In this document: positions 2,265 through 18,662 of the stretch, piece after piece | How positions within the stretch are numbered: the first letter of the stretch is position 1 | How the letters are laid out: each line of letters opens with the position of its first letter | DNA from: a virus | Length of the DNA: 22,052 nt | Strand: one strand, 5' to 3' | IMG/VR virus record: IMGVR_UViG_3300043427_000160 | Location: 1-22,052 of that record | Position numbers and translations under genes: made by a program | The notes under the pieces: generated by a model | What the model saw: the letters and a program-made list of their open reading frames with translations, nothing else | Told to the model about the DNA's origin: nothing | The model's database searches: none

Positions 2265-5200
2265 TTAGAGCCAAGCGCCCATTATAACGAATAGTTCTAC
2301 ATCTTCTCCATTGACAGACAAGCCACCAGTGTTGGTTCCTCCACCAGTACCAGTTCCAACGTTGACATTACCAGATGCATCAATACTTGCGCGGCTTGTT
2401 CCGCCAGTCATTAGGTTAAGAGTTGAACCGCCAACATACAATGGTTGATATGATGCAATTCCAGTATTATCTACGCCTTCTACATACGCAGCACCTGCTG
2501 TTGTTCCTAATCTAACGGCTCTAGCAGTTCCAGCAAAAACTGCTGTAATGCTTGAATCTATTCCTGGAGTTACGGCTAAAGTTCCATCACTTTTAATCCT
2601 TGTAAGATTTGTTCCAGCGCTATTCTGAATCTGCAACAAATCACCAGACTGCGATGCAGCACCACGAATAACTGCGCCAACATTGGATGCAGCAGTTGAT
2701 ACCACACCAAACTGTTGGGCAACAGAACCTGAGCCAAGAGTTAGTGATGTTGAACCAACTGTGGTTTGACCTGCAAAGTAGTTAGCAGCGGTGCCGTTCA
2801 TATATGCGTTCCACACACCAGATGCTGCTGCAAGGTTTCCATAGAAACCATAGTTGTTAGTAGCACCTGTTAATGTAGATTGAACCAAATAACCAAACTG
2901 GCTTCCTACAGTAGAACTTGCTCCTATTGTTGTTGTACCAACAGCAATATGAGTTAATGATGTAAGATTAAATGTTGTTGCTTCTGTAGTTGGAGCAATA
3001 CGCAAACCGTAGTAAGTGCCTGTAACATCTGATTTAATTGTTTGGTCAACATACATACCGTAACCAGTTGTTGCACCAGTTGCATCTCTACCTAATATAA
3101 AAGCAGTTGCTGTGGTTGGTGTGGTACCAATACCTATTGAGCCACTGCTACTAATACGCATACGCTCTGCAGAAGTACCAGCAGAATCAGTAGTTAAAAA
3201 GACTAAACGACCAGGAACTACACCGCTTGAAGGAGTGGCATCAGCGTTTGCTCTAATTACTGCAGATTGTTGCCAAGCAGTTCCGTCATCTCCATAAAAC
3301 ACTAAGTCGCCTAAAGTATCACCTGAATTGACTGTTGTGTAAGTTCCAGTTGTTGTTGAGCGACTCTTATGAAGTGCAACTCTTGAACCTATAGAAGAAG
3401 CATACATTCCATAAAGAGCAAGTGGATAACCGCTTCCAGTACCAACAATGCTTTCAAGAAATGCTCCGCTACCAGCAGTAGGGTATCCATTGTTTCCTAT
3501 AATTAAACGACCAAGGTGGTCAACTATAAATGGAGTTGAATCAGGATTAGTTGAATCTTCAACAAGAAGTGAATAGCCTGTACCTGTATTAGTAATACGG
3601 AATACATCAGCAGTACCAGCATTGGTAAATGTGTTTAGACCAGTAAAGTCATTGTTACCAGCAAGGGTTGGGAAACCAGAGGTAGATACTGCTACCTGCT
3701 CCCAAGCACTTGTGTTGCCGTTGTATACAAACATAACACCGCTTGTGGTGTTGTAGTACAGCACTCCGCTTGTTAGCGGATTGCCATCATTGTCTACAGT
3801 TGGGGCAGAAGCCTTTGGTCCTAGGTATCTGTCATCAAAGGAGTCAAATGAAGCAGCAGCACTATTAGCAGAAGTTAATGCAGATGCTGCCGAAGTGCTG
3901 GCGCTGTTAGCGCTAGTTAAAGCAGATGATGCTGAAGTTGCTGCACTTGATGCTGACGTTGCCGCATTTGTTTCAGATACCGCAGCACTTGAAGCAGATG
4001 TAGCAGCAGCAGTCGCTGATGCGGCTGCGGATGTAGCACTGGTTGCAGCATTAGTTGCACTTGTAGATGCAGCAGTTGCTGAAGCAGCAGCGCTTGTTGC
4101 GCTAGTTGCAGCAGCAGTAGCGCTAGCAGATGCTGAAGTCGCTGAGGTAGCAGCAGCAGTTGCACTGGCTGCAGCAGAAGTAGCGCTGGTAGCAGCAGCA
4201 CTGGCTGAGGTAGCCGAAGCAGTCGCTGAGTTAGATGCGCTAGTTGCTGAAGTGCTTGCTGAGTTAGCCGATGTTAAGGCTGAGGATGCTGAGGTGCTAG
4301 CCGAAGATGCAGATGTTGCTGCTGCGGTAGCAGAGTTAGCAGCCGTAGTAGCAGATGCTGCAGCGCTTGTGGCGCTGGTTGCCGCTGCTGTCGCAGAAGC
4401 CGCTGCAGAGGTTGCAGAGGTGGCTGCTGCTGTGGCTGAGGCAGATGCACTGTTGGCGCTAGTTAGGGCGTTAGAAGCGCTTGTAGCCGCGCTAGAGGCA
4501 CTTGTAGCGGCAGAGGCAGCACTTGTAGCAGCCGATGCTGCTGAGGTTGCTGCAGCCGTTGCTGAGCCTAGGATGCTATCTACGTAATCCTTAGGGGTAG
4601 CAGAGGATGAAATCATACCTGCGCTAGACAGACCTGTGATTACTGGTGAACCTGATATTACAGGGCTTGTCAAGGTTTTATTAGTCAGGGTTTGGGTTGC
4701 TGAATCAAGGACTACGGTACCTGTTGTGTTAGGCAGGGTGATTGTATTGTCCTGTGTTGGGTCAACTACAGTCAGGGTAGTCTCGTGAGCATCAGCGGTA
4801 GAGCCTTCAAAGACAATGCTTGCCTCGGCACTAGGAGTGCCGGTAAAGGTTGGATTAGAAATTGTTGGGCTGGTAAGAGTCTTATTGGTCAGAGTTTGTG
4901 TCTTAGCTGTACCAACTACATCACCTTCGCCAGAGCTAATGCCATGCATTGTGTGGCCTGTACCACTACCATCATTGTAGTAGGCAGAAGCCTCGGCATG
5001 TAGGTTAGCATCACGGAAGTCACGACCAATAGCCATGTGACGCACTACCGCACCGGCTGAATGTTCCTGTGCTGATGAGCCATCAATTGCGCGGGTGACT
5101 GTAAAGGTATTAGTGGCTACCGCCGTGGCATCTACAATTTCTTCAAGAGCTGTGTCTGGGTCAATAACCAATGTAAAGGTACGACCAGCTGGGATTGTCA

Positions 5201-5312
5201 CACCGCCTAGAAGAGTTGTTCCTGAAACAACTGTCATCGAGGTTGCACCTGATGTAATTGTTCCAGTCAGCGTACTCTGCTGGCTACGGGACGAGTATTG
5301 GCGTGTTGTCAT
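2265..5312 (-). CDS. Tail fibre protein with Ala/Ser/Thr heptad stalk (1015 aa)
   Basis: This is a host-contact fibre. Residues 1-130 form a beta-rich attachment domain (STLTGTITSGATSMTVVSGT, then PAGRTFTLVIDPDT). Two copies of TLTNKTLTSP follow at 140-149 and 208-217, a motif common in aquatic-phage fibres. Residues about 250-488 are some 34 heptads of the form x-T/N/A-S-A-x-x-A, expected to be an alanine-zipper coiled coil. After YNTTSGVMFVYNG (520-532) come several beta modules with ERMRISSSGSIGIGT, typical of distal fibre repeats, and a conserved end VNGEDVELFVIMGAWL. I see no intramolecular chaperone (endosialidase-type) domain. RBS AGGA is seven bases before ATG. A trimeric state is expected for the class but not shown here. 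Confidence 0.88.
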   Translation of the reverse strand: MTTRQYSSRSQQSTLTGTITSGATSMTVVSGTTLLGGVTIPAGRTFTLVIDPDTALEEIVDATAVATNTFTVTRAIDGSSAQEHSAGAVVRHMAIGRDFRDANLHAEASAYYNDGSGTGHTMHGISSGEGDVVGTAKTQTLTNKTLTSPTISNPTFTGTPSAEASIVFEGSTADAHETTLTVVDPTQDNTITLPNTTGTVVLDSATQTLTNKTLTSPVISGSPVITGLSSAGMISSSATPKDYVDSILGSATAAATSAASAATSAASAATSASSAATSASNALTSANSASASATAAATSATSAAASATAAATSATSAAASATTAANSATAAATSASSASTSASSALTSANSASTSATSASNSATASATSASAAATSATSAAASATAAATSATSASASATAAATSATSAAASATAASTSATNAATSATSAAASATAAATSASSAAVSETNAATSASSAATSASSALTSANSASTSAASALTSANSAAASFDSFDDRYLGPKASAPTVDNDGNPLTSGVLYYNTTSGVMFVYNGNTSAWEQVAVSTSGFPTLAGNNDFTGLNTFTNAGTADVFRITNTGTGYSLLVEDSTNPDSTPFIVDHLGRLIIGNNGYPTAGSGAFLESIVGTGSGYPLALYGMYASSIGSRVALHKSRSTTTGTYTTVNSGDTLGDLVFYGDDGTAWQQSAVIRANADATPSSGVVPGRLVFLTTDSAGTSAERMRISSSGSIGIGTTPTTATAFILGRDATGATTGYGMYVDQTIKSDVTGTYYGLRIAPTTEATTFNLTSLTHIAVGTTTIGASSTVGSQFGYLVQSTLTGATNNYGFYGNLAAASGVWNAYMNGTAANYFAGQTTVGSTSLTLGSGSVAQQFGVVSTAASNVGAVIRGAASQSGDLLQIQNSAGTNLTRIKSDGTLAVTPGIDSSITAVFAGTARAVRLGTTAGAAYVEGVDNTGIASYQPLYVGGSTLNLMTGGTSRASIDASGNVNVGTGTGGGTNTGGLSVNGEDVELFVIMGAWL
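3849..4565 (-). repeat. Heptad-encoding imperfect 21-base repeat in the fibre gene
   Basis: About 34 imperfect 21-base units encode the stalk (fibre residues about 250-488). On the plus strand it appears as blocks of gcagcag, gctgaag and gcgctagtt. Unit consensus at protein level is x-[TNA]-S-A-x-x-A. Longer near-identical blocks recur (ATSATSAAASATAAATS appears more than once), which points to past unit duplication and makes expansion or contraction by recombination likely. The bias also creates long spurious frames on the opposite strand. Confidence 0.8.
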
Positions 5313-5320
5313 TTATGTTC

Positions 5321-6253
5321 CTATCGGCTGTAGTGAACTCGGGTTGGGAATTGACCCTGGAAGGCTGATATTTCTTCTTTAAGTCTTTGTTGATAAAGTG
5401 CGAATATTTGACGAGCAGCGGAGTTGGCAGAGCCAAAGGAGCGCTTAGCATCAATCTCATCTGCCTGTGGGCTGATTTGAGATGCACGAGCTGGGTCTAG
5501 GTAAGTCAATAGTCGGTATGCTGCGCCCAGGATTACAACATCACGAGCGGTCTCAGAGTACCCTGTTGTGGTGGTAAACACATCTGTGCTGTTTGACATG
5601 GCCTGTGGCTGTACTACATAGTTAACCTTGACTGTACGCCCAGCTGTGATGTAATCACCAATTGTAACTGTTTGAGCTCCGGCACCCCAGGTGCCCGTGT
5701 CTGCCTTAGAATCAAATGTCCAGCGACGTACATTAATCCATTCCTGGCTAGGACCAATGTCCTGCCATGACATGGTTAGAATGTTTTCAATATTAAGTGG
5801 GTTGCCATTGCTGTCAGTTAGTTCGTAAGTTGTGACAGATGGGTTGAACACAAATGTTGTTTGACCAATAACCATAAGCTGTGTGCCCATGGCACGGATA
5901 GTGTCGTTGATGGCACGCTTAACTACATAGCGTGGGAAAATTGGGGAGATGGTAACTTTGGTATCGCCAATATGTGTAGCAGCTTGAGAGCCTAGATAGC
6001 CACGGCCATAAGGCGCGATGGTGGCTGTATTGCTAACACGGTCGAAGGAGGATACCCACATAAGCTCCTCGTCAACTTCAATTACACCTTTGCCTAAGTC
6101 TTGAGTAGAGCCTAGGCTTAGCACTGTCGGAGAGGAGCTAGGAGAAGTTAATGTGGTAACTGGAGCAGTAAGATAAGTACTTCTATCTTGTTGATAGGTA
6201 TAGCCTGAGAGATTAACTAATGTCTCATCAATCATTTCACTAAGTGTTGTCAC
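5321..6253 (-). CDS. Probable head-tail adaptor / neck protein (310 aa)
   Basis: The helical N-terminus (TLSEMIDETLVNLSGYTYQQ) and the C-terminal helical part (ARDVVILGAAYRLLTYLDPA, 234-253, then a RQIFALYQQRLKEEISAFQ helix) bracket a beta-rich middle with ELMWVSSFDRVSNTATIAPYGRG-type strands. Helical ends around a beta insert, in the gene just before the fibre, fit the ring-forming adaptors that link portal and tail, as gatekeeper or tail-tubular proteins do in podoviruses. I do not see a decisive signature for one named family. The start is GTG 6251-6253 in a GTGA overlap with the preceding gene. The stop TAG forms part of TAGGA, the ribosome-binding site of the fibre gene 8 bases on. Confidence 0.72.
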   Translation of the reverse strand: MTTLSEMIDETLVNLSGYTYQQDRSTYLTAPVTTLTSPSSSPTVLSLGSTQDLGKGVIEVDEELMWVSSFDRVSNTATIAPYGRGYLGSQAATHIGDTKVTISPIFPRYVVKRAINDTIRAMGTQLMVIGQTTFVFNPSVTTYELTDSNGNPLNIENILTMSWQDIGPSQEWINVRRWTFDSKADTGTWGAGAQTVTIGDYITAGRTVKVNYVVQPQAMSNSTDVFTTTTGYSETARDVVILGAAYRLLTYLDPARASQISPQADEIDAKRSFGSANSAARQIFALYQQRLKEEISAFQGQFPTRVHYSR

Positions 6254-6525
6254 AGGTTAATGCTCCTTAAAGCGTCAGTCGGTGATAAGTTCGTTGTTCC
6301 TGCAAGTTCATTACAGATTCCGCCAAGAGCTTTATAGTTGTTCGGCTGACGATTGGCATCTGCTTTTTTATTCAAGGCAGCAATCAAGGCTAAGCCTGTA
6401 GTTCCTGCATAAACGTTTGCAGCCTTAGTAGGTGCTACGTAATTTAGAATAGATGGATAAGTGCCACCATTAGCTAAGCGATTTAGCTCGCTAGTAAATG
6501 AACTACCTGCTGTGCCTGTTGCCAT
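6250..6525 (-). CDS. Repeat-containing small virion-type protein (91 aa)
   Basis: The short protein contains a near-repeated motif: LNRLANGGTYP (about 14-24), VYAGTTGLALIAALN (38-52) and CNELAGTTNLSPTDALRSI (71-89). I have seen similar AGTTGL-ALN proteins in actinobacteriophage tail regions, but no function is known to me. It is coupled upstream by TAATG. Downstream its TGA overlaps the GTG start of the adaptor-like gene (GTGA), so it is probably made together with the neck protein. Confidence 0.75.
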   Translation of the reverse strand: MATGTAGSSFTSELNRLANGGTYPSILNYVAPTKAANVYAGTTGLALIAALNKKADANRQPNNYKALGGICNELAGTTNLSPTDALRSINL

Positions 6526-6920
6526 TATCTATACCTCGAAGTTTTCTTTGCTATTGATTTAGGTTGCTTAGAGAACTGCTTACCCTTGCGTAAGTCTTCG
6601 CGCTTCTTTGCTGATGTCTTAGCGTATTCAGAAGCTGACAACTTCTCACGTGCTTTCTTGGGAAGATATCTTTCCCCTGTGGCTTTGTCGCCTTGGGTGC
6701 TAGGTTTACCTGACTTGGTACCCCAGTCTTCCTTAGTCCACTTGCTTAAAGATTTTTGTTTGCTAGTCTTACTTCCAGAGTAACCACCACCAGCTTTCTT
6801 GTATTCTTGCGCTACAAGTTGTGCCTTGCGAGCTGACCATTGCCCGGGCTTACCGCCCTTGCTACTGGCCATAACTTTCTTTTTGATTCGCTCACGAAGT
6901 TCAGGATTGGTGTATGCCAT
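6525..6920 (-). CDS. Basic protein, DUF5872-like (131 aa)
   Basis: The first half reads NPELRERIKKKVMASSKGGK then GQWSARKAQLVAQEYKKAGGGY. The second has SLSKWTKEDWGTKSGKPS, then TGERYLPKKAREKLSASEYA and a Lys/Arg tail. The KGGKPGQWSARKAQL and KW-WGTKSG-TGERYLPKKAR motifs are those I associate with DUF5872-type proteins of phages and some large eukaryotic viruses. By count 37 of 131 residues are Lys or Arg. I chose ATG 6918-6920, which gives the TAATG junction; a GTG two codons earlier would only add two residues. The function is unknown. It closes the basic cassette. Confidence 0.8.
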   Translation of the reverse strand: MAYTNPELRERIKKKVMASSKGGKPGQWSARKAQLVAQEYKKAGGGYSGSKTSKQKSLSKWTKEDWGTKSGKPSTQGDKATGERYLPKKAREKLSASEYAKTSAKKREDLRKGKQFSKQPKSIAKKTSRYR

Positions 6921-7210
6921 TACCACTTTACCTTGTCAGCCCAATAAGCGGCTGACATCTTTCCTTTAGCAATGTTCTTTGAATGGCGTGCCTTAAATGA
7001 TGCACGCTTCTTTTTCATTCTGTCAGACTCTCCAGCTTTAGGAGCACCAGCAGTCTTAGCGCCTTGCTCACCGAAACGAATAGTCTTTACTTTGTCCCCT
7101 ACTTTAGCCACAACTACATGTGACTTGGTCGGGTGATTAGGAGTGCGCTTAGGTTTATTGAAACCTGAAACACCGGCTCTCTTAAGCCTTGGGTCCGCTT
7201 TCTTTTCCAT
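6920..7210 (-). CDS. Basic protein, DUF6321-like (96 aa)
   Basis: The core reads DPRLKRAGVSGFNKPKRTPN, then HPTKSHVVVAKVGDKVKTIRF and FKARHSKNIAKGKMSAAYWA with DKVKW at the end. I associate this arrangement, with the invariant-looking KRTP-HPTKSH-VVAK and KARH-KNIAKGKMSAAYWA parts, with the DUF6321 family seen in phages. The function is unknown; the charge and the His/Lys pattern suggest nucleic-acid contact. I chose ATG 7208-7210 (MEKKADPRL) because family-like sequence starts there. An ATG three codons upstream is also possible but has AGGA almost abutting it. The stop overlaps the next start as TAATG. Confidence 0.78.
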   Translation of the reverse strand: MEKKADPRLKRAGVSGFNKPKRTPNHPTKSHVVVAKVGDKVKTIRFGEQGAKTAGAPKAGESDRMKKKRASFKARHSKNIAKGKMSAAYWADKVKW

Positions 7211-7331
7211 ACTCACCATACTTTCCTAGTACCTTTTGAATTCTACCGTCTTTGCGAAGGCGCACCACATATCCATTTTTAATCTGAACTGGGTTAAAAC
7301 CATGATGCGCCTTGCCCTTACCTGACGACAT
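7182..7331 (-). CDS. Overlapping mini-gene (49 aa)
   Basis: The short frame starts at ATG 7329-7331, sharing its A with the TAA of the upstream gene, and reads MSSGKGKAHHGFNPVQIKNG followed by YVVRLRKDGRIQKVLGKYG. The second part looks like a small beta hairpin with alternating basic residues. Its 3' end overlaps the DUF6321-like gene out of frame by 29 bases. The one-base TAATG junction and the fact that it exactly fills an otherwise unexplained 110-base gap favour a real gene. No function can be assigned. Confidence 0.62.
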   Translation of the reverse strand: MSSGKGKAHHGFNPVQIKNGYVVRLRKDGRIQKVLGKYGEYGKESGPKA

Positions 7332-7609
7332 TATCGGTTCTTGATTCCGAACATACCACCTGCACCGCCGCCTGACATGCGGCCAATGCGGGTTACTCCA
7401 GCCTTGACTGGATTGCTATCTACTTTTACTACCTTTGGAGTTTTACCACGTAGTTTCGCTCCATCATTCTCTGCTTTAATTTGTTTAGCTCCCATGCGTG
7501 CAGCATTACCAGACTTAGCCTGCTGAGTTGCCCACTCGGAGAATGCATTGTATATATTCTGTGGCTGTGTCTTGCTTGCTACAGTTGGGCGCTTTCTTAC
7601 TGTTGCCAT
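7331..7609 (-). CDS. Basic hypothetical protein (92 aa)
   Basis: The sequence begins MATVRKRPTVASKTQPQNIY, has a helical centre (AFSEWATQQAKSGNAARMGA) and a Lys-rich part (KLRGKTPKVVKV), and ends in a Gly/Met-rich tail (GRMSGGGAGGMFGIKNR). I do not recognise it. The Gly-rich end resembles flexible tails of minor virion proteins. It abuts the 60-aa gene and overlaps the following 49-aa gene by TAATG. Confidence 0.72.
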   Translation of the reverse strand: MATVRKRPTVASKTQPQNIYNAFSEWATQQAKSGNAARMGAKQIKAENDGAKLRGKTPKVVKVDSNPVKAGVTRIGRMSGGGAGGMFGIKNR

Positions 7610-7792
7610 TTACTTGCCCTTCTTCTTACGAGCCATACCTGCCTGAGACAGAGCAATGGCAATAGCCTGCTTGCGGTTCTTTACTACCTTGGCTTTCTTT
7701 GGACCCTTCGGGTCCTTGCCTGCATGTAATGTGCCAGCTTTGAACTCACGCATTACTTTAGAAACTTTCTTTTGCTTAGCAGTCTTTTTCAT
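7610..7792 (-). CDS. Lys-rich mini-protein, DUF6496-like (60 aa)
   Basis: The core reads KVMREFKAGTLHAGKDPKGP followed by a KAKVVKNRKQAIAIALSQAG segment, a pattern I associate with the DUF6496 family: KV..EFK.G.L..G, then V-K-RKQAIAIALS. By count 21 of 60 residues are Lys or Arg and only two are acidic. Family members are found in bacteria and phages, with no known function to my knowledge. The TAA stop is directly followed by the ATG of the next gene. The family name is from memory and should be checked by profile search. Confidence 0.78.
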   Translation of the reverse strand: MKKTAKQKKVSKVMREFKAGTLHAGKDPKGPKKAKVVKNRKQAIAIALSQAGMARKKKGK

Positions 7793-8007
7793 TTCTGCTT
7801 GCCCTTTTTATTGTAGCGTCTACCTTGTAGTAGAGCTCCTAGGAATTGGCCTTGTTCTGCCTGTTGCTTCTTACGAGCAGCTACTGCTCTTTGATTAGCA
7901 CCAGGACCTACTGCTGCGTCAGCATCAAATGACTTACGCCAAGCATTGACAAACTGGCCGCCTTCTTTGAATAAATTACCGAAGTAATTGTCATCTCTTT
8001 TGGCCAT
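7789..8007 (-). CDS. Basic small protein (72 aa)
   Basis: It starts MAKRDDNYFGNLFKEGGQFV and has a central GPGANQRAVAARKKQQ stretch and a basic end (GRRYNKKGKQK). I recognise no family. The N-terminal half looks like an amphipathic helix, the middle like a linker, and the tail is strongly positive. It starts two bases after the stop of the 45-aa gene and ends with an ATGA overlap onto the 60-aa gene. It is the second member of the basic cassette. Confidence 0.75.
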   Translation of the reverse strand: MAKRDDNYFGNLFKEGGQFVNAWRKSFDADAAVGPGANQRAVAARKKQQAEQGQFLGALLQGRRYNKKGKQK

Positions 8008-8009
8008 GA

Positions 8010-8147
8010 TTACTTCTTCTTACCCATCTTCTTCATGGCTGCCTTCTTAGCTGGTGCCTTCTTCTTCATCATTTTCATCTCTTCAGCCTTAGCCATCTTC
8101 TTGCCCTTAGCTGTGTATGGGAATTCTTTCTTTCCTACCTTTGGCAT
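8010..8147 (-). CDS. Lys/Met-rich mini-protein (45 aa)
   Basis: This gene fills an otherwise empty 141-base space. It reads MPKVGKKEFPYTAKGKKMAK at the start and continues with Lys/Met/Ala runs to a KKK end. By count 18 of 45 residues are lysine and three are acidic. AGGAG lies six bases before ATG 8145-8147, within the end of the 103-aa gene. I associate the VGKK-FPYTAKG start with small proteins of aquatic phages. A nucleic-acid-binding or DNA-condensing role is plausible from charge alone; nothing more can be said. Confidence 0.75.
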   Translation of the reverse strand: MPKVGKKEFPYTAKGKKMAKAEEMKMMKKKAPAKKAAMKKMGKKK

Positions 8148-8148
8148 A

Positions 8149-8460
8149 TTATACTCCTAGTTCTTTCATTACCGCTGCTGATTGTTTGTTGATTGCTTTA
8201 GCTGGTGGCATCTTACCGGCATCATATGGCCGACCTAATGTCTCACTAGCTTTTACTGCTTCCTGAATCTTCTTCATTGAAGTTCCAGAAGGCTGAATGC
8301 CTTGGGCTCTAGCCTCTTTGTAGGCATCCAATTCTTTGTTGAACGCTTTGTTCGGCATCTGTTTCCGACTGTCAGCGTCTCCTGCGTTCATCTGTATGCT
8401 TAGGCCTTTACACCCAAAGCAGCCGTCCACCGGCTCAGGATGATATTCCCAATGTTTCAT
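8149..8460 (-). CDS. CxxC small protein of actinophage type (103 aa)
   Basis: The N-terminus contains HWEYHPEPVDGCFGCKGLSI, a CxxC knuckle at about 14-17 with nearby histidines that may bind zinc, followed by MNAGDADS. The second half is helical and charged (KELDAYKEARAQGIQPSGTS, then MKKIQEAVKASE). The combination of GCFGCK with a DAY-EAR-QGIQP-GT motif is one I know from many actinobacteriophage structural regions, and is among the better host clues here. No function is established to my knowledge. Its start overlaps the preceding stop (ATGA). Its stop region also supplies AGGAG for the next gene one base downstream. Confidence 0.82.
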   Translation of the reverse strand: MKHWEYHPEPVDGCFGCKGLSIQMNAGDADSRKQMPNKAFNKELDAYKEARAQGIQPSGTSMKKIQEAVKASETLGRPYDAGKMPPAKAINKQSAAVMKELGV

Positions 8461-8795: not shown

Positions 8796-9998
8796 CTAGA
8801 GAGCAGCGATTGAGGAACCAGAGGTGATGCGATACAATGCCTCGTCGCGGTAAACTGCGAAGCCTAGTACGCCGTACCAGCCCATTGGGCGGAAGCGCAT
8901 CAACTTGTCAGTTACGTTACCGATAACGATGTGTGGCTCTTCAGCAACGGCTTCTGCCATAGCCTGAGCACCGCACACGATTGTGTCGAATACACGAGTT
9001 ACTGGAGTTACAGTTACAGTTGTGGTTGCAGTAACTGCACCGGTGTTAGCTGTATCTACAGTGAAGGTTGTGGTTGAGCCAGAGGTGGAGATTGCAGTAA
9101 TCTTAGCACCTGAAGCGATACCAGTTCCAGCAATCTTGTCGCCAACCTCAGCACGGGTTGCGATAACAGCAGTTGAAGCAACACCGAAGGTGAAGCCAGC
9201 TGATGTACCAGCAACGGTTACAGCGGTTGTAGCAAGAGGAGTCTGGTCTGCACCTGACTTAGCATTGTACAAACGTGGTGACTCTACGAAGAATGCGCCT
9301 TCGTAATCTCCGATTTCTCCTGCCCAAATCTTGTCTGCAGCTGGAGATGTTTGTGCATGTACGAAGTTCCAGCCCATGTTTCCGGTTTCTGCACGAAGGT
9401 CGTGTGAAACTTCTGGGTGGATACCTGTCCAGTATAGTGAGCCACGGCGAGCCTTGGCCTTGTTAGCGCGTAGCTTAGCAACAGCGCGACGGATGTCAGC
9501 TGAATCGATTGTATCAGCAGCATCTACGTTAGCAACAGCAGTTGCGTTTCCAGCAAAGATGTTGTTTGAACCGGAGCGAAGAGTTGTCATAGCAACTGCA
9601 TCGATGGAGTCAGCTAGGTTGTAAGCAATGATGTTTGCAATAGCTGGGTCTACATCTGCAAGTGAGAACAACTCAAGTGCACGGGTTACTAGAACTGCAT
9701 TTCCGTACTCGTTTAGAGTTACGGTTACAGTTGTAGGTGTTGATAGAGAAACTGCATCTGGGTCAGTTGTCTCTGTTAGTGTACCAGTTACCTGGTCCAA
9801 ATCGACGTACTTCTGTAGTACAACGGTCTGGCCTGGGATAGCTTGACGGGCAGGACGCTTATCTGCGACAGAACGAATTAGTGGTTCTGAACGGAGAGCG
9901 AACTCGAGAAGACGGTCATACGCCTTCTGTACGAGACCTGCGCCACCAACGGAACCGCCGAGCGAGGTGCTCGCGGTTGACGTATATTGGTTTGACAT
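8796..9998 (-). CDS. Major capsid protein, N4-gp56-like, with inserted domain
   Basis: This 400-residue protein is the shell subunit. The HK97-type body resembles the N4-gp56 major capsid family. It has an N-terminal helix (AYDRLLEFALRSEPLIRSVA, 26-45), a beta-rich stretch with GTLTETTDPDAVSLSTPT (72-89) and NEYGNAVLVTRALELFS (96-112), then the helical part RRAVAKLRANKAKARRGSLY (170-189) with the following HPEVSHDLR. A conserved end follows, IVCGAQAMAEAVAEEPHIVI (340-359) then MRFRPMGWYGVLGFAVYRDEALYRI. Residues about 245-333 do not fit that body: they are a Thr/Ala/Val-rich beta segment, probably an inserted surface domain. The gene follows the scaffold by 29 bases with AAGGAG about 10 bases before ATG 9996-9998. 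A GC-rich hairpin lies after its stop. Confidence 0.9.
   Translation of the reverse strand: MSNQYTSTASTSLGGSVGGAGLVQKAYDRLLEFALRSEPLIRSVADKRPARQAIPGQTVVLQKYVDLDQVTGTLTETTDPDAVSLSTPTTVTVTLNEYGNAVLVTRALELFSLADVDPAIANIIAYNLADSIDAVAMTTLRSGSNNIFAGNATAVANVDAADTIDSADIRRAVAKLRANKAKARRGSLYWTGIHPEVSHDLRAETGNMGWNFVHAQTSPAADKIWAGEIGDYEGAFFVESPRLYNAKSGADQTPLATTAVTVAGTSAGFTFGVASTAVIATRAEVGDKIAGTGIASGAKITAISTSGSTTTFTVDTANTGAVTATTTVTVTPVTRVFDTIVCGAQAMAEAVAEEPHIVIGNVTDKLMRFRPMGWYGVLGFAVYRDEALYRITSGSSIAAL
9000..9266 (-). other. Inserted Thr/Ala-rich beta domain within the major capsid protein
   Basis: Capsid residues about 245-333 interrupt the N4-gp56-like body between ESPRLYNA and TRVFDTIVCG. The segment contains VGDKIAGTGIASGAKITAIS followed by alternating Thr/Val strands, a pattern often seen in beta-sandwich modules of phage tail and decoration proteins. 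The boundaries are estimated by eye. Confidence 0.55.
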
Positions 9999-10027: not shown

Positions 10028-10498
10028 TTATTGTTGTGATTGAAGGATTGACAATAGTTCTTCAGCAGAACCTGCCTGATTCAGACGTTGGTCTAAATCT
10101 AATCCTCTATCAGGTGTCAGTGCACCTTGTGTTAGGAAATCTTGCTGGCGTAGCCGTGCAAGGTCCTGTTGACTTACTGGTGCTTCGTCAGCTACCTTGA
10201 GTCCGAACAAGTCTGCGTTATCATCGAGCCAGTGCGATACTGTCTCCTCGTTAACTTCATCCAAGTCCTTCATTACAAGGCGTGCAGCTTTTTCGTTGAC
10301 ACCCTTTTTTGCTAGGACATTCTTGACAATCTGCTCACGCTGCGACTTGGTAAATGTCTCAAGCTGCTCTGTGAGTTCTTTGATACGTTTTTCATCTGCT
10401 CTCTTGGCTTTGCGTAACTTCTTTAACAAGTCACTTCCATCGAGCTGAGGCTCGTTATCTAGGTCATCGTCTTCGTCGTCCCAGTAGTTGTTGCTCAT
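10028..10498 (-). CDS. Capsid scaffolding protein (156 aa)
   Basis: The scaffold guides assembly of the major capsid protein into a prohead and is then removed. The gene lies immediately upstream of the capsid gene, its usual place. The protein has a very acidic head (YWDDEDDDLDNEPQLD), a heptad-rich charged helix (about 20-50, with KKLRKAKRADEKRIKELTEQ), a middle segment VNEKAARLVMKDLDEVNEETVS followed by HWLDDNADLFG, and a Gln/Leu-rich C-terminal helix ending ELLSILQSQQ. This layout matches scaffolds of many actinobacteriophages. I chose ATG 10496-10498 with AAAGG nine bases upstream; an in-frame GTG three codons earlier lies within that spacer and lacks its own RBS. No protease domain is visible. 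Confidence 0.83.
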   Translation of the reverse strand: MSNNYWDDEDDDLDNEPQLDGSDLLKKLRKAKRADEKRIKELTEQLETFTKSQREQIVKNVLAKKGVNEKAARLVMKDLDEVNEETVSHWLDDNADLFGLKVADEAPVSQQDLARLRQQDFLTQGALTPDRGLDLDQRLNQAGSAEELLSILQSQQ

Positions 10499-10616
10499 AG
10501 CAACCACCCTTTCTATTCGTTGTTAGTTCGCAGGCCTCATAGCTATTCGGGGAAAATAGTATGGCTCCTACTATCGGTCTATTACGCTGGCGGGGCCGAC
10601 CGGTCCGCTCAGGATT
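10499..10616 (-). promoter_or_regulatory. Longest intergenic gap; possible regulatory leader of the scaffold-capsid genes
   Basis: This 118-base gap lies between the 558-aa gene and the scaffold gene, where most neighbours overlap. It contains the inverted repeat ATAGTA (10556-10561) and TACTAT (10569-10574) with a 7-base loop, followed on the minus strand by TTTT then CCCC, and the 8-base palindrome GACCGGTC (10598-10605). An AAAGG Shine-Dalgarno element lies 9 bases before the scaffold ATG. I see no clear -35/-10 pair. The stem is AT-rich and weak, so calling it a terminator would be overreach. A promoter, operator or processing site boosting capsid expression is plausible. Confidence 0.4.
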
Positions 10617-13246: not shown

Positions 13247-14064
13247 TAAATTCCACCTGCCATAATCTTCTGGAATAGGTCAAGGCCTTCGAATGCTTTA
13301 CGACGTTCTACTAGCTCTGGAGTCTCTTCTTCAAACTTCTTGCCAAGCATAGACTCAAACTTCTCTTGGCTAAATCCACCGGTAGTCTTAGATACATTCT
13401 CTAACTTACCAGTCTTTGGGTTACGGACTTGTTCAGTCTTTGTAAGTACACCCTTTTGAATAATCTTATCAGCCATGTCTAGGGCTTCTTGGAGCTCTGC
13501 ATCATCTAGCTTCTTGCCTCTGTTCTTGATAGCAAAAGCTTGTGCAATTTCAGAAAGAGTTCCTTTGTCATACTCACGAATCTGACGCTGTGGAATATTG
13601 TCAGTAGCTGATGCGCCCTGCATTGACATATTAAGAAGTTCGTATGGGGTAATCTTTGGCCCACTGCCACCTCTGTAGATTTCAGCTGCTTGGTCTACGA
13701 TATCTTTCCATACTTCATAAGCACCTGGCTTGCCAGCATTGGCACGGCCCATAAGTTGGAGATAGGTCATTACCTGATTCTGAGTGCCCGGGTTTGACCA
13801 AAACTCACTATAGATATCTTCTTTAGGTTTAGTATTAACTTCTACAATTTTAGCTTGTCCGCCCATACCTGCTACATCAGAAGCACCAGGGGCCATCGTT
13901 CTAGCTGGAGCCTTCTTGCCTTTCTTGGTTACCTTCTCGCCTAGGTAAACATTTGCGCTTCCCGTGCCGCCACCCATGGCGTATGCTGCGCTGAGTGCGG
14001 CAATAGCCTGGTCTCTTGTAACACCCATAGCTTGCATAAATGCTTGTATAGCTGCCTCATCCAT
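13246..14064 (-). CDS. Putative internal virion protein with short N-terminal helical domain (272 aa)
   Basis: I recognise no enzyme motif. The first 30 residues (AAIQAFMQAMGV...QAIAALSAAY) look like a small three-helix module. A Gly/Lys linker follows (about 31-62: GGGTGSANVYLGEKVTKKGK). The rest is mixed helical with many charges, ending LFQKIMAGGI. It is sandwiched between the giant protein and the 317-aa protein with one-base TAATG overlaps at both ends, so all three are probably made in coordinated amounts and act together in the particle. Role as virion component is inferred from position only. Confidence 0.72.
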   Translation of the reverse strand: MDEAAIQAFMQAMGVTRDQAIAALSAAYAMGGGTGSANVYLGEKVTKKGKKAPARTMAPGASDVAGMGGQAKIVEVNTKPKEDIYSEFWSNPGTQNQVMTYLQLMGRANAGKPGAYEVWKDIVDQAAEIYRGGSGPKITPYELLNMSMQGASATDNIPQRQIREYDKGTLSEIAQAFAIKNRGKKLDDAELQEALDMADKIIQKGVLTKTEQVRNPKTGKLENVSKTTGGFSQEKFESMLGKKFEEETPELVERRKAFEGLDLFQKIMAGGI

Positions 14065-17000
14065 TACTTGCCAACTCCTAGGTATTTATCGTATATAGGG
14101 TCCTGGTCTAAATATCTATCATATAGGTCCGAAAACCCTATATCCTCGCCCTTTAGGCGAAGAGCTACTGCAGACATTAGTATCTTTAAATCAGCATTTT
14201 CTCTAGCGTTGATATCTTTAGAATTACGTAGAGCTAGTCTTGAAGCTACAAAGCCACGCATATTAAGATACGCAATTACAGATTTCCAAGTACCACTATC
14301 AGCATTGTCCTCCATGAATGTAGGATTGCTGACAATCTTTTGTAGTCCCTGTACAAATCGGGTAGTCTTTGTGCCATCTCTGTCTAGATAATCTATATAC
14401 CAAGCGCTTGGCTCACCTGTAGGCTTACCAGTTACAGGATTAATCTTGCTAGCCAGGGCTTGAACTGTGGCAGTCTTTAACGCTTTCAAATCAGAAGCTC
14501 CTGCAGCATCTAATGATGATAGCTTGCGACGACGTAATTCTACATCGATATAGCTTTGAATCCTGCGGAACTTTACCCAACCTTCACGGGCCTGATTACG
14601 CTGAATAGCTTCCTTGGGGTCAACTGCGCCACGGAATCTCTCTGAAGTTCCTGGAGATATAGCTGTCTCTTCTTGCCACCAATATGCGGTAGGTGAGAAT
14701 GCTGACTTCTTGGAACCGCGAGTAATTAAACCTACCAAAGAAGGATTTAAGTCTTTAACTTCTGAAATCAAGTCTGCATAGCGCTGAGCATTCTTAACAT
14801 CTGTCATTGTTGCTGCGGAACCAGTTCTATTCTCTGATAGAGAAATAGCAAAGCTAAAGAATTCAGGGTAATCTTCCATGAATTTCTGGTCAGCTTGTAC
14901 GCCATACTTGTCGTTATACTGACGGTACTTCTCAATGTAGATACGGTATGGACTCTGGAACTGAGGGGCAAATGGAAGAATCAAGTTAGCCCATGTACGT
15001 GTATTGTACAGAGCATCAGTCATCTTCTTGATTTCTTTGTCACTCTTGAATGGAGTGCCGTTTTCTTTAGCCTTCTGCTGTTCGGTCAGCCAGATTGTAG
15101 CAAACAATCTAGCATACGCAGGGCTATCCATACCCTGAGCGCGTTCTACCTGACGGCGTAACCATGTAGGAAGGAACTGTTGAACTGAGGTATCTGGTCC
15201 ATATGGGAATGCCCAACTTAATACGGCATCTGTATCAGGTGCCATCTTGATTAGATAAGAAGCAGGCAATGCAAAGTAAGGTCCAACACCTAGACTGAAT
15301 GGATTGCCCATAAAGACTACGTCGATAGAGCGCTTACTAATACCGACTTGTTCCATGCTCTTTAAGCCTTCGCCAATAAGCGGTAGCTTCTTCATTGATT
15401 CAGGAACCTGCAACCATATAGTTTCATTACCATCTAGGGTTGTATATGGTGGTACTGGATTGCCTTCTTCATCTGTAATAAGTCCTGCGCTGTTAGGAGC
15501 ATACCATAGTGCAGCTGCACGGGTGAAGATATAAGGCTTTTCACTAGCAATCTTTAGCCAAGTCTTAATAGAGTTCTCTTGTGCAGAGAAGAATGGGGCA
15601 ATAAAGCGTAAAGCTTGCGCTAAACTTGTGCGACGCTCTACGTTATAAAGGATTTCCTTTACTCCCTTTAGGGCATCAGCTCTCGCACCAGCTTCAATAT
15701 TCTTTTGAATCTCACGGAACTCGTCAGCTGTAAAGCTCTTCTTATTTAAGAACTCATATGTGGCAAAACGTTTCTGTGCGGAGCGGCGGTAAATCTCATC
15801 AAACAATGGGTTACGTGCCCAGGCATCTTCAGGCATTGAGCCAATAATCTTAAATGCCTTATTGATAGCACGCTTAGTCCAGTTAGCACCCTTGCGGTTA
15901 ATGTTCTCCTCAAGTAGGAAACCATGAACTGTAGGTAGTTTAGCTGGGTCTTTGATAGCCTCGCGTAGGAACTGAGGGGTTACAGCTCCAGCCTTAGCTA
16001 ACTCATCTGATATACCACTGCCTGATGGCATGTAGTTATCCATAAAGCTCTTTACTGTAGCTACATACTCCAGAGATTCTTCTCTAGATAATCCTAGGCG
16101 TGCACGTAGTTTACGTCCATCATCTGTAGTCTCTAGCCATCTTGCCACAGAAGTCACATCTTCGCCGGGTATGAGTAGCTGCTTAACTACAGCAGAGTTT
16201 CCAAATGCTTTATTAATAGCATCTGACCATTCCTTGTAGTAGTTATCCATATCAGGAGTAATCTTGCCACGGGTACCAGATGCAAACTTAGCACCATAAA
16301 TGTTAGCATAGTCATCTAGTATGCGTGACATTACACGCTCAGATGAGTTCAAGGTGCGGAACATGTCGCCCAGTGGGCCACCAAAGCTACCATGTACAGT
16401 AAACTGTGAGCCATCTGGGCTCTCATACATAGACGATAACTTGAAGTCCTCTTGTCCAAGAGTCTTCTTTTGTGTCTTTAACTTTGCTTTTTCTAGAGCT
16501 GTCAAAGAGTCACTATTAGTCTGATATACTGCAGCCTTAGCGTCATACTTAACCTTTTCAGCTACAAGCTGTGCAGTTAAGTCTGGGTCATCTGGTGACT
16601 TCTCTAGCTGCTTTGAAATCTTCTTAATATTAGCTTCATGCTCGGCCATCTCAGCTCCAGCTTTTTGCATGCTGGCTTTAATCTCACCATAAGATGACGG
16701 CTTCAAGCCTTTACGGTAGTTGCCAATGTTATCGATTAAACGAGCACCCTGATTGTACTTATTCTCAACTAGGTTCTGCATGCCCTTGCCCATATGGCGC
16801 ATGGTAGTCATGGCGCCGAATACAGACATAATACGTAGCTGTGAATCTAGGGCGTTACGTACAGGGTAACCAACACGTAGAAGTACAGAAGCTTTCCATA
16901 GGTCGTTAACAGCCTCCAGTGCTTGGATGCTGCTACCATAGATTTCGTGTAGAGTCTTGAATGCACCTTTATTAGAGCTGATTACTCTATCGATTAAATC

Positions 17001-18662
17001 AAAGTCAGCAATAGGGTAGAAGTTGGCTGTCTGTGATTCAAACAAAGCAGCCTTTATGTTGGTATCGGTGATGCTGTCGTAGACATAGCCGACTTCTTTC
17101 ATCTCTCTCAAGAAGCCATTCTTTAGTGCCTGGTGATGGTTCAACAAAGTCTTTACTTCATCAACAGTTAAGCCGTGCTTCTTACCAATAGCGGCAAAGC
17201 CGGCCTCTTCTAAAGCTACTAATATATCAAACTTAGCTTCAGGTGATATTGCTGCACCATAGCGAGATAGGAAAGATGCTGCTACATCAGAGCCAACAAG
17301 TTCTTTGTCAACTAATCTATTAAGAGTTGCTGTAACTTCCTTGATTGAGTCACCCTCATTAAGATTTGCAAGACCTGAAGGAGTTTCTTTGCCAAGAGTA
17401 GATACTTTGTAGTACATACGATGGAATGGGGTAGGCTGATAAATCTCCATCGTAGGTTCAATTATAGCTTCGTCAACTAGTCCGGCTGTACGAGCAGTAG
17501 CAATCTCTCGGTTGAAGCGCTGAGATAGCCCAGTTGCTACACCTTCAGTCATTGGTGCAACTTCTGATACGCCCATTAGGGCTGCGATGTACTTGTCATG
17601 CTGAGCATAGATGCGAAGGAACTCGGTATCCGCTGCGATTTCTTCTGGAGTTCTCAAGTAAGACAGCGGAAGCATGTCTTCATCTTGTGTTCTTCCTAGA
17701 ACTCTTTCATCACGAAGTAAAGTCTTTAGCTCACTGCGTGTAAGTTGTCCATTTGCAATACTGATAGGCTCAGCAATATCTGGACGCTTCATAGCATCTA
17801 GCTTTTCTACGGAACTTGAATCGCCAAGAAGAGCTTTCATTGTATAAAGAGCTTCTTCTTTTGTGCTAGCTTGTCCTAGTAGGTAGGACGATACGCCAAT
17901 ATTATTACCAGCTTGTACCCAAGGGTGCTTCTGTGCCCACAAATCTGAGTTAGCAGCAAAATCTTCACCCATCTTAGAGTATTTATTGTTCTTGCCAGCT
18001 AAAGCTTCATCGATTCCCTTGATTGCCTCAATTGGGTCATCAGGCGTACGTAGTGCTTGTACACCTTTACCGCCGATTAGTGATACGTCAAGTCCTACTT
18101 GCTTCCAAAAGTCAAGTGTTCCAGACATAACACCACCATAAAGCGAATCTTTAAATCCTTTTTGGCGTTGCTCTGCGTCGAAAATATCAAAGTCTTCTTT
18201 AAGTATTAATGGAAGATTTTCTTCAGTGCCAGTTAACTTAGCATACTGCTTCCATCCATAGCTCCATGGCAGCATCTCTGCGTATGCTTGACCAAGAGAA
18301 ACATCGTTACGAGCTTCCCAAGCTTTCTTCCAGCCTGCAATGTTCTCTTCTTTTGTTTGTGTACCAAGAGATACTTCTTCGCCAGCCAAAGCTAAAGCAG
18401 TAAGAGGCTCCCAAATAATGTTCTTGTTGGTCTGATAGATACCAGCAACTAGTCCACCAACTGGTCGACCAAGATTTTTACCGAAGTCTAAGCTAGCCTG
18501 ACGCAAGGTATTAGCAACACCATTGAATTCTTCTCTGTCATTGTACGGCGCAGTGCCGACATCCCAGATAAACTTATAAGGTGCTATGGCTGCTAGGCCG
18601 ACATCTTTAACCCAGTCGGTTGCACCTTTAGCAAATCTTCCAACATTATCCCATACACTCAT
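14064..18662 (-). CDS. Giant internal virion / ejection-type protein (1532 aa)
   Basis: This is the largest gene in the window. I recognise no enzymatic catalytic motif. It resembles the very large proteins encoded between portal and scaffold in actinobacterial phages. Landmarks are a Trp-rich amphipathic N-terminus (MSVWDNVGRFAKGATDWVKD), a segment LWKASVLLRVGYPVRNAL (588-605) followed by LRIM, a charged coiled-coil-like stretch (about 660-735), and the motif LRFIAPFFSAQENSIKTW (1018-1035). After that comes a region rich in Trp, Tyr and Pro that could lie against membrane or DNA channel. Size, position next to the portal and the absence of a tape-measure gene suggest a head-stored protein that leaves with the DNA, like the internal core proteins of T7-type phages, though I see no direct homology to those. 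It starts by ATGA overlap and ends in TAATG. Coding is certain; function is inferred. Confidence 0.75.
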   Translation of the reverse strand: MSVWDNVGRFAKGATDWVKDVGLAAIAPYKFIWDVGTAPYNDREEFNGVANTLRQASLDFGKNLGRPVGGLVAGIYQTNKNIIWEPLTALALAGEEVSLGTQTKEENIAGWKKAWEARNDVSLGQAYAEMLPWSYGWKQYAKLTGTEENLPLILKEDFDIFDAEQRQKGFKDSLYGGVMSGTLDFWKQVGLDVSLIGGKGVQALRTPDDPIEAIKGIDEALAGKNNKYSKMGEDFAANSDLWAQKHPWVQAGNNIGVSSYLLGQASTKEEALYTMKALLGDSSSVEKLDAMKRPDIAEPISIANGQLTRSELKTLLRDERVLGRTQDEDMLPLSYLRTPEEIAADTEFLRIYAQHDKYIAALMGVSEVAPMTEGVATGLSQRFNREIATARTAGLVDEAIIEPTMEIYQPTPFHRMYYKVSTLGKETPSGLANLNEGDSIKEVTATLNRLVDKELVGSDVAASFLSRYGAAISPEAKFDILVALEEAGFAAIGKKHGLTVDEVKTLLNHHQALKNGFLREMKEVGYVYDSITDTNIKAALFESQTANFYPIADFDLIDRVISSNKGAFKTLHEIYGSSIQALEAVNDLWKASVLLRVGYPVRNALDSQLRIMSVFGAMTTMRHMGKGMQNLVENKYNQGARLIDNIGNYRKGLKPSSYGEIKASMQKAGAEMAEHEANIKKISKQLEKSPDDPDLTAQLVAEKVKYDAKAAVYQTNSDSLTALEKAKLKTQKKTLGQEDFKLSSMYESPDGSQFTVHGSFGGPLGDMFRTLNSSERVMSRILDDYANIYGAKFASGTRGKITPDMDNYYKEWSDAINKAFGNSAVVKQLLIPGEDVTSVARWLETTDDGRKLRARLGLSREESLEYVATVKSFMDNYMPSGSGISDELAKAGAVTPQFLREAIKDPAKLPTVHGFLLEENINRKGANWTKRAINKAFKIIGSMPEDAWARNPLFDEIYRRSAQKRFATYEFLNKKSFTADEFREIQKNIEAGARADALKGVKEILYNVERRTSLAQALRFIAPFFSAQENSIKTWLKIASEKPYIFTRAAALWYAPNSAGLITDEEGNPVPPYTTLDGNETIWLQVPESMKKLPLIGEGLKSMEQVGISKRSIDVVFMGNPFSLGVGPYFALPASYLIKMAPDTDAVLSWAFPYGPDTSVQQFLPTWLRRQVERAQGMDSPAYARLFATIWLTEQQKAKENGTPFKSDKEIKKMTDALYNTRTWANLILPFAPQFQSPYRIYIEKYRQYNDKYGVQADQKFMEDYPEFFSFAISLSENRTGSAATMTDVKNAQRYADLISEVKDLNPSLVGLITRGSKKSAFSPTAYWWQEETAISPGTSERFRGAVDPKEAIQRNQAREGWVKFRRIQSYIDVELRRRKLSSLDAAGASDLKALKTATVQALASKINPVTGKPTGEPSAWYIDYLDRDGTKTTRFVQGLQKIVSNPTFMEDNADSGTWKSVIAYLNMRGFVASRLALRNSKDINARENADLKILMSAVALRLKGEDIGFSDLYDRYLDQDPIYDKYLGVGK

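Follow-up and report, generated by a model that had tools for sequence, protein, structure and literature searches.

Tlr6f genes are reported from nearly all polinton-like viruses, in several virophages, in many Megavirales and in some phages, and have no known function (PMC4642659); that they are conserved across virus groups without a known function is also noted elsewhere (PMC12220804). The protein family, Tlr6F/DUF5754 (PF19058), is one of four that concern us here. DUF5872 (PF19197) and DUF6496 (PF20106) are both families without described function, and the algal giant virus CpV-BQ1 carries one DUF5754 and one DUF5872 gene that are not adjacent (PMC12085832). The fourth, DUF6321 (PF19846; cyanophage T4-GC119), lies between the terminase genes in T4-type cyanophages and is called hypothetical there. 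We rejected its label as a 'structural protein' in cyanophage S-P4 as virion evidence, since the source paper, like the annotation of S-SM1, has the same cluster as hypothetical. For small proteins inside a phage head, IPI-III and Alt of T4 may serve as a working model, in which small core proteins assemble together with the scaffold, remain in the head and are then injected; after its injection IPI acts as an inhibitor of GmrSD, and the target that Alt modifies is RNA polymerase (PMC9958956). The T4 proteins, to which the cassette proteins have no known sequence relation, use a cleaved targeting sequence.

The window, i.e. the whole stretch of 22,052 nucleotides that was analysed (IMG/VR record IMGVR_UViG_3300043427_000160, from an aquatic phage), carries a cassette of seven small genes on its minus strand, at positions 6525-8147, which we call P1 to P7 in transcription order. 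The capsid gene is followed by Pa and Pb, then by the cassette, by Pc and by the gene of a 310-aa neck/adaptor-like protein. A first-pass annotation had described seven tiny basic genes between capsid and neck genes, and their coordinates, exact lengths, lysine richness and position were all borne out by our analysis. The features are, in transcription order:

Acidic scaffold-like protein (context): 10028-10507, minus strand; phrog_3760 'head scaffolding protein' (6e-4), pI 4.6
Major capsid protein (context): 8796-9998, minus strand; phrog_1357 'major head protein' (1.1e-77)
Pb: 8149-8460, minus strand; 103 aa, phrog_24600 (1.6e-25), upstream edge of the slot, kept in 55 of 56 loci
P1: 8010-8147, minus strand; 45 aa, Lys-rich (18 K of 45), phrog_33179-like (1.1e-5), recurrent member
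P2: 7789-8007, minus strand; 72 aa, basic, lineage-specific
P3: 7610-7792, minus strand; 60 aa, DUF6496 (PF20106, 1.9e-10), 21 K+R of 60
P4: 7331-7609, minus strand; 92 aa, basic, lineage-specific
P5: 7182-7331, minus strand; 49 aa, basic
P6: 6920-7210, minus strand; 96 aa, assigned by sequence to the Tlr6F/DUF5754 superfamily (phrog_7595), near-invariant core
P7: 6525-6920, minus strand; 131 aa, DUF5872 (PF19197, 1.6e-6), two domains (P7N, P7C), 37 K+R of 131
Pc: 6250-6525, minus strand; 91 aa, phrog_27452 (7.5e-35), downstream edge of the slot, kept in 56 of 56 loci
Neck/adaptor-like protein (context): 5321-6253, minus strand; 310 aa, SU10_adaptor (3.8e-5, just below cut-off), phrog_7578

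P1 and P2 are separated by a 2-bp gap, P2 and P3 overlap by 4 bp, and P3 and P4 abut; further downstream there are overlaps of 1 bp (P4/P5), 29 bp (P5/P6) and 1 bp each (P6/P7 and P7/Pc). All seven cassette proteins have a pI of 10.2-11.4. For Pa, the capsid protein, the scaffold-like protein, the neck protein and the portal the pI is 4.6-5.2. Five of the seven genes are under purifying selection, with median dN/dS values of 0.16 (P1), 0.14 (P3), 0.12 (P5), 0.06 (P6) and 0.07 (P7); P2 and P4 gave no usable pairs. The dN/dS values refute, for these five genes, that the cassette consists of chance or decaying small ORFs, and the families are moreover conserved across hundreds of contigs. P2 and P4 would best fit such an explanation, being rare and without measurable conservation; for the cassette as a whole we regard it as scarcely credible. 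In family searches, P2 had no match and P4 no significant one.

Outside the cassette, the window encodes a 1532-aa protein (14064-18662; phrog_10618, unknown) that by size and place might be an ejected internal virion protein. A tail-fibre protein with long Ala/Ser/Thr repeats (2265-5312) contains a probably spurious 268-aa antisense open frame, and a glycosyltransferase gene (1-723; phrog_34859) lies at the end of the structural genes.

P6 is, on the basis of sequence comparison, a diverged protein of the Tlr6F/DUF5754 superfamily, which we claim as superfamily membership and not as membership of the Pfam family. It matches phrog_7595 over its full length (4.2e-43, residues 2-96 of 96) and phrog_220 at 1.6e-5. 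When 62 aligned P6 relatives were compared by hhalign with 14 aligned Tlr6F/DUF5754 proteins from phages, the probability was 99.3% over 76 columns (E 3e-20), and 13 of these 14 proteins match PF19058 (best 4.9e-16); it is from these two results that the superfamily assignment follows. At the Pfam gathering score the P6 of the window has no DUF5754 match, and 37 of 66 relatives match DUF5754 weakly, with 0.00097 as best value. P6 also differs from Tlr6F/DUF5754 by a longer basic N-terminus, a distinct linker and its place in a phage late operon. Its predicted fold is a beta hairpin followed by two helices (pLDDT 85.6, pTM 0.75). Fold searches returned, at probability 1.00, a 1393-aa protein, an XkdF protein, ICP1 ORF125 and a Tunisvirus protein, the last of which adds to the likeness with Tlr6F/DUF5754; against solved structures, neither P6 nor P7 found a match. 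Sequence matches of P6 to ribosomal L24 and to RNases were insignificant and were dropped.

Close relatives of P6 are found in phages of Roseobacter, Celeribacter, Lentibacter, Puniceispirillum, Synechococcus and Prochlorococcus, and in phages whose hosts are Synechococcus, Rhodobacteraceae or uncultured, identity is mostly 60-90%. A scan of bacterial genomes gave matches that were all in metagenome bins or single-cell assemblies, which are probably viral contigs. In one contig (L211:1497-2402) a truncated P6-like domain stands in frame with a stretch that by eye resembles a glycosyltransferase, perhaps due to a deletion or an assembly chimera.

Three cassette proteins had been likened to DUF6496, DUF6321 and DUF5872, and two of these likenesses stood. 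P3 matches DUF6496 with 41.4 bits against a gathering cut-off of 24, and P7 matches DUF5872 over residues 4-116 with 29.1 bits against a cut-off of 27.5. P6 as a DUF6321 protein had to be rejected, as the protein of the window has no match to that profile and hhalign gave an insignificant 8% over 13 columns, although P6 and DUF6321 have an RRxSFxAR motif in common and occupy the same slot with the same neighbours.

P7 is a natural fusion of two units, P7N and P7C, which in other phages are adjacent separate genes (104 fused, about 60 split). Its predicted structure has a pLDDT of 89 but a pTM of 0.54. P7 occurs in several phages that carry close P6 relatives and in pelagiphages. Among cultured phages, Roseobacter phages CRP-603 and CRP-9 and Synechococcus phage S-CRES1 encode P6 and P7 as stand-alone proteins. 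P3 adjoins P6 or DUF6321 in other phages; in annotated phages, neither P3 nor a frequent slot protein from a different family had a match. Two contigs have P7C fused to P6 in one ORF (L105:4963-5499 and L130:4479-5009), which is evidence that the two act jointly. To keep such fusions out of it, the P7 profile was made from short ORFs only, with P7N and P7C as separate parts.

We then compared the slot across the capsid lineage, for which 56 relatives had capsid and neck genes on one contig. P6 was present in 55 of these, P1 in 47, P7 in 33, P3 in 30, P5 in 22, P2 in 10 and P4 in 5. The cassette members are unequal: P6 is the core, the recurrent members are P7, P3 and P1, and the remaining three (P2, P4 and P5) are lineage-specific. 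Sixty-nine distinct slots contained 4-9 genes each, and 93% of their 333 distinct ORFs had a net charge above +0.1 per residue, versus 1% of 85 control ORFs, i.e. small ORFs of the same strand elsewhere; among the called slot ORFs some were probably read in the wrong frame, an error that could only weaken the charge signal. Summed over the slot, the charge had a median of +89 (10-90%: 61-111) and reached +111 in the window. P7 was found in 45 of the 69 slots, a different basic family in 20, neither in 4 and both in none. One family of basic 53-aa proteins, which belongs to no known kind (L024:3772-3933 and 24 relatives), replaces P7 and never stands alongside it. Only two of the 69 slots lacked P6 (L044 and L306), and both had DUF6321 instead (5e-21 in L044).

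The variable content of the slot and the rapid exchange of its members might also indicate a packaged arsenal that is injected against a new host, for anti-restriction, nuclease block or seizure of RNA or ribosomes, like IPI* and Alt of T4. The cassette would then turn over because host defences differ, and the described activities of the T4 proteins provide a precedent. This is the main and a strong rival to the reading that we prefer, in which the proteins stay with the head and its DNA, although we consider it rather unlikely: specific inhibitors from unrelated families would not be expected to be uniformly charged, and P6 is highly conserved across phage hosts, unlike arms-race genes.

The first-pass annotation had made its proposal of a shared job dependent on co-location of the families in related phages. 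We found them co-located, in unrelated phages as well, in addition to the fusion of P7C with P6. Outside the capsid lineage, the density of P7C was 0.42 per kb in the first 500 bp around P6 and 0 beyond 3 kb (same strand in 34 of 34 cases), and P3 showed the same pattern relative to P6 (0.16 per kb, 0 beyond 3 kb, same strand in 17 of 17). When loci sharing large proteins were merged, leaving groups without detectable large-protein similarity to each other, P6 and P7 stood within 1 kb in 17 such groups and P6 and P3 were adjacent in 11. In marine phages, DUF5754-type proteins follow split or fused P7N/P7C at 0.1-0.4 kb (L423, L425, L440 and six others), so that the P6-P7 pairing reaches the classical Tlr6F branch.

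P6 and DUF6321 never occurred in one locus (393 P6 loci versus 37 DUF6321 loci), and phages with P7 but without P6 usually have DUF6321 nearby. The p value of 1.4e-7 for this exclusion counts related loci, and a hypergeometric test at the level of lineages was not significant (p 0.2). The argument for substitution therefore rests on swaps between members of one lineage, in which either P6 or DUF6321 is present; these were seen in four lineages and in the capsid lineage.

Cassette genes are not always at capsid genes, which counts against a role in the head: in S-CRES1 they stand beside lysis genes, and in HTVC035P close to early genes. The place of DUF6321 between terminase genes in T4-type cyanophages points the same way. 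The slot could hence be a hotspot of late accessory genes with basic products that act outside the virion, for example on cytoplasmic nucleic acids, and some cassettes indeed adjoin lysis genes or end the late operon. We hold this to be improbable, given that P6 is strictly kept beside the capsid gene and that P6-like domains are fused to head proteins.

These fusions are of two kinds. Protein gp012 of phage CL131 (L331:2417-6598, 1393 aa), a phrog_220 portal-MuF fusion, combines Phage_portal_3, a P6-like domain (residues 534-604), an InPase-like domain and Phage_Mu_F, and the 1393-aa fold match of P6 is taken to be this protein because of the same length. To find an InPase-like domain within a portal protein is odd in itself. 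LC-MS/MS of CL131 particles after purification identified 23 proteins, CL131 gp012 among them (PMC6293099); the mass spectrometry reports on the whole fused protein and not on the P6-like domain itself. CL131 gp012 is one large multidomain protein, whereas P6 is stand-alone. In the second kind, the P6-like domain is N-terminal in XkdF-type capsid proteases, as found by profile in gp102 of Aeromonas phage 2L372D and by fold in ICP1 Gp125, a predicted capsid protease (PMC9040626; PMC7567579). In 2L372D gp102 the domain is followed by Peptidase_S78_2, i.e. the XkdF-type protease, and the gene lies three genes upstream of the annotated capsid gene in a cluster that spans terminase to major capsid gene. 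In these proteins the domain is joined to a protease, while no protease of this type is seen next to P6 in the window. Domain fusion and one virion proteome thus link the P6 domain to phage heads; for stand-alone P6, P7 or P3 in a virion we found no report in the literature.

The occurrence of P6-like domains in a virion portal-MuF protein and in a capsid protease strengthens the part of the earlier proposal that saw one shared job, here a job in the head; as a whole, the proposal is partly supported. The same fusions would suit P6 or DUF6321 being mainly a head-assembly factor, which would attach to scaffold, portal or protease before being lost or cleaved, with DNA binding being incidental. 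The acidic scaffold-like protein of the window and the position in cyanophage KBS-S-2A, between minor head protein and coat protein, agree with such a role. The same domain family is, however, present in polinton-like and giant viruses, whose capsids differ from those of phages, and the basicity of all other slot proteins would be left without explanation. An assembly role as the main function is therefore quite unlikely in our opinion.

In the reading that we prefer, and to which we assign about an even chance, the cassette supplies the head interior with a modular set of proteins, probably DNA-binding, that are made with the capsid and have P6 or DUF6321 as their core. The proteins would be produced alongside the capsid and built into the head interior, where they might neutralise or organise packaged DNA, perhaps after binding the acidic scaffold first. 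P6, a stand-alone Tlr6F-type domain, or DUF6321 would form the core, P7 would be the usual partner of P6, and P3, P1 and others could be exchangeable charge carriers. A virion-internal location of the proteins of the window, their binding to DNA and their joint action are inferred.

Apparently new in this work are the linking of the families, the charge-conserved slot and the tie of Tlr6F to phage heads; the families themselves were named already, without a function, and among the open-licence literature we found no paper making these points. DUF5754-like proteins, DUF6321, DUF5872 and DUF6496, which are unexplained and common in aquatic phages, are joined into one functional unit, and the slot is a case in which charge is kept under sequence exchange. 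We may further speculate, as a tentative and somewhat doubtful generalisation, that the Tlr6F-type domain is a general virion-internal DNA-handling module of tailed phages, polinton-like viruses, virophages and giant viruses, and that aquatic phages surround it with a swappable cassette in which total charge rather than sequence is selected. If true, this would solve the function of Tlr6F. As both common descent and domain fusion tie Tlr6F to portal and capsid-protease proteins of phages, one of which was seen in virions, the question becomes testable on cultured phages.
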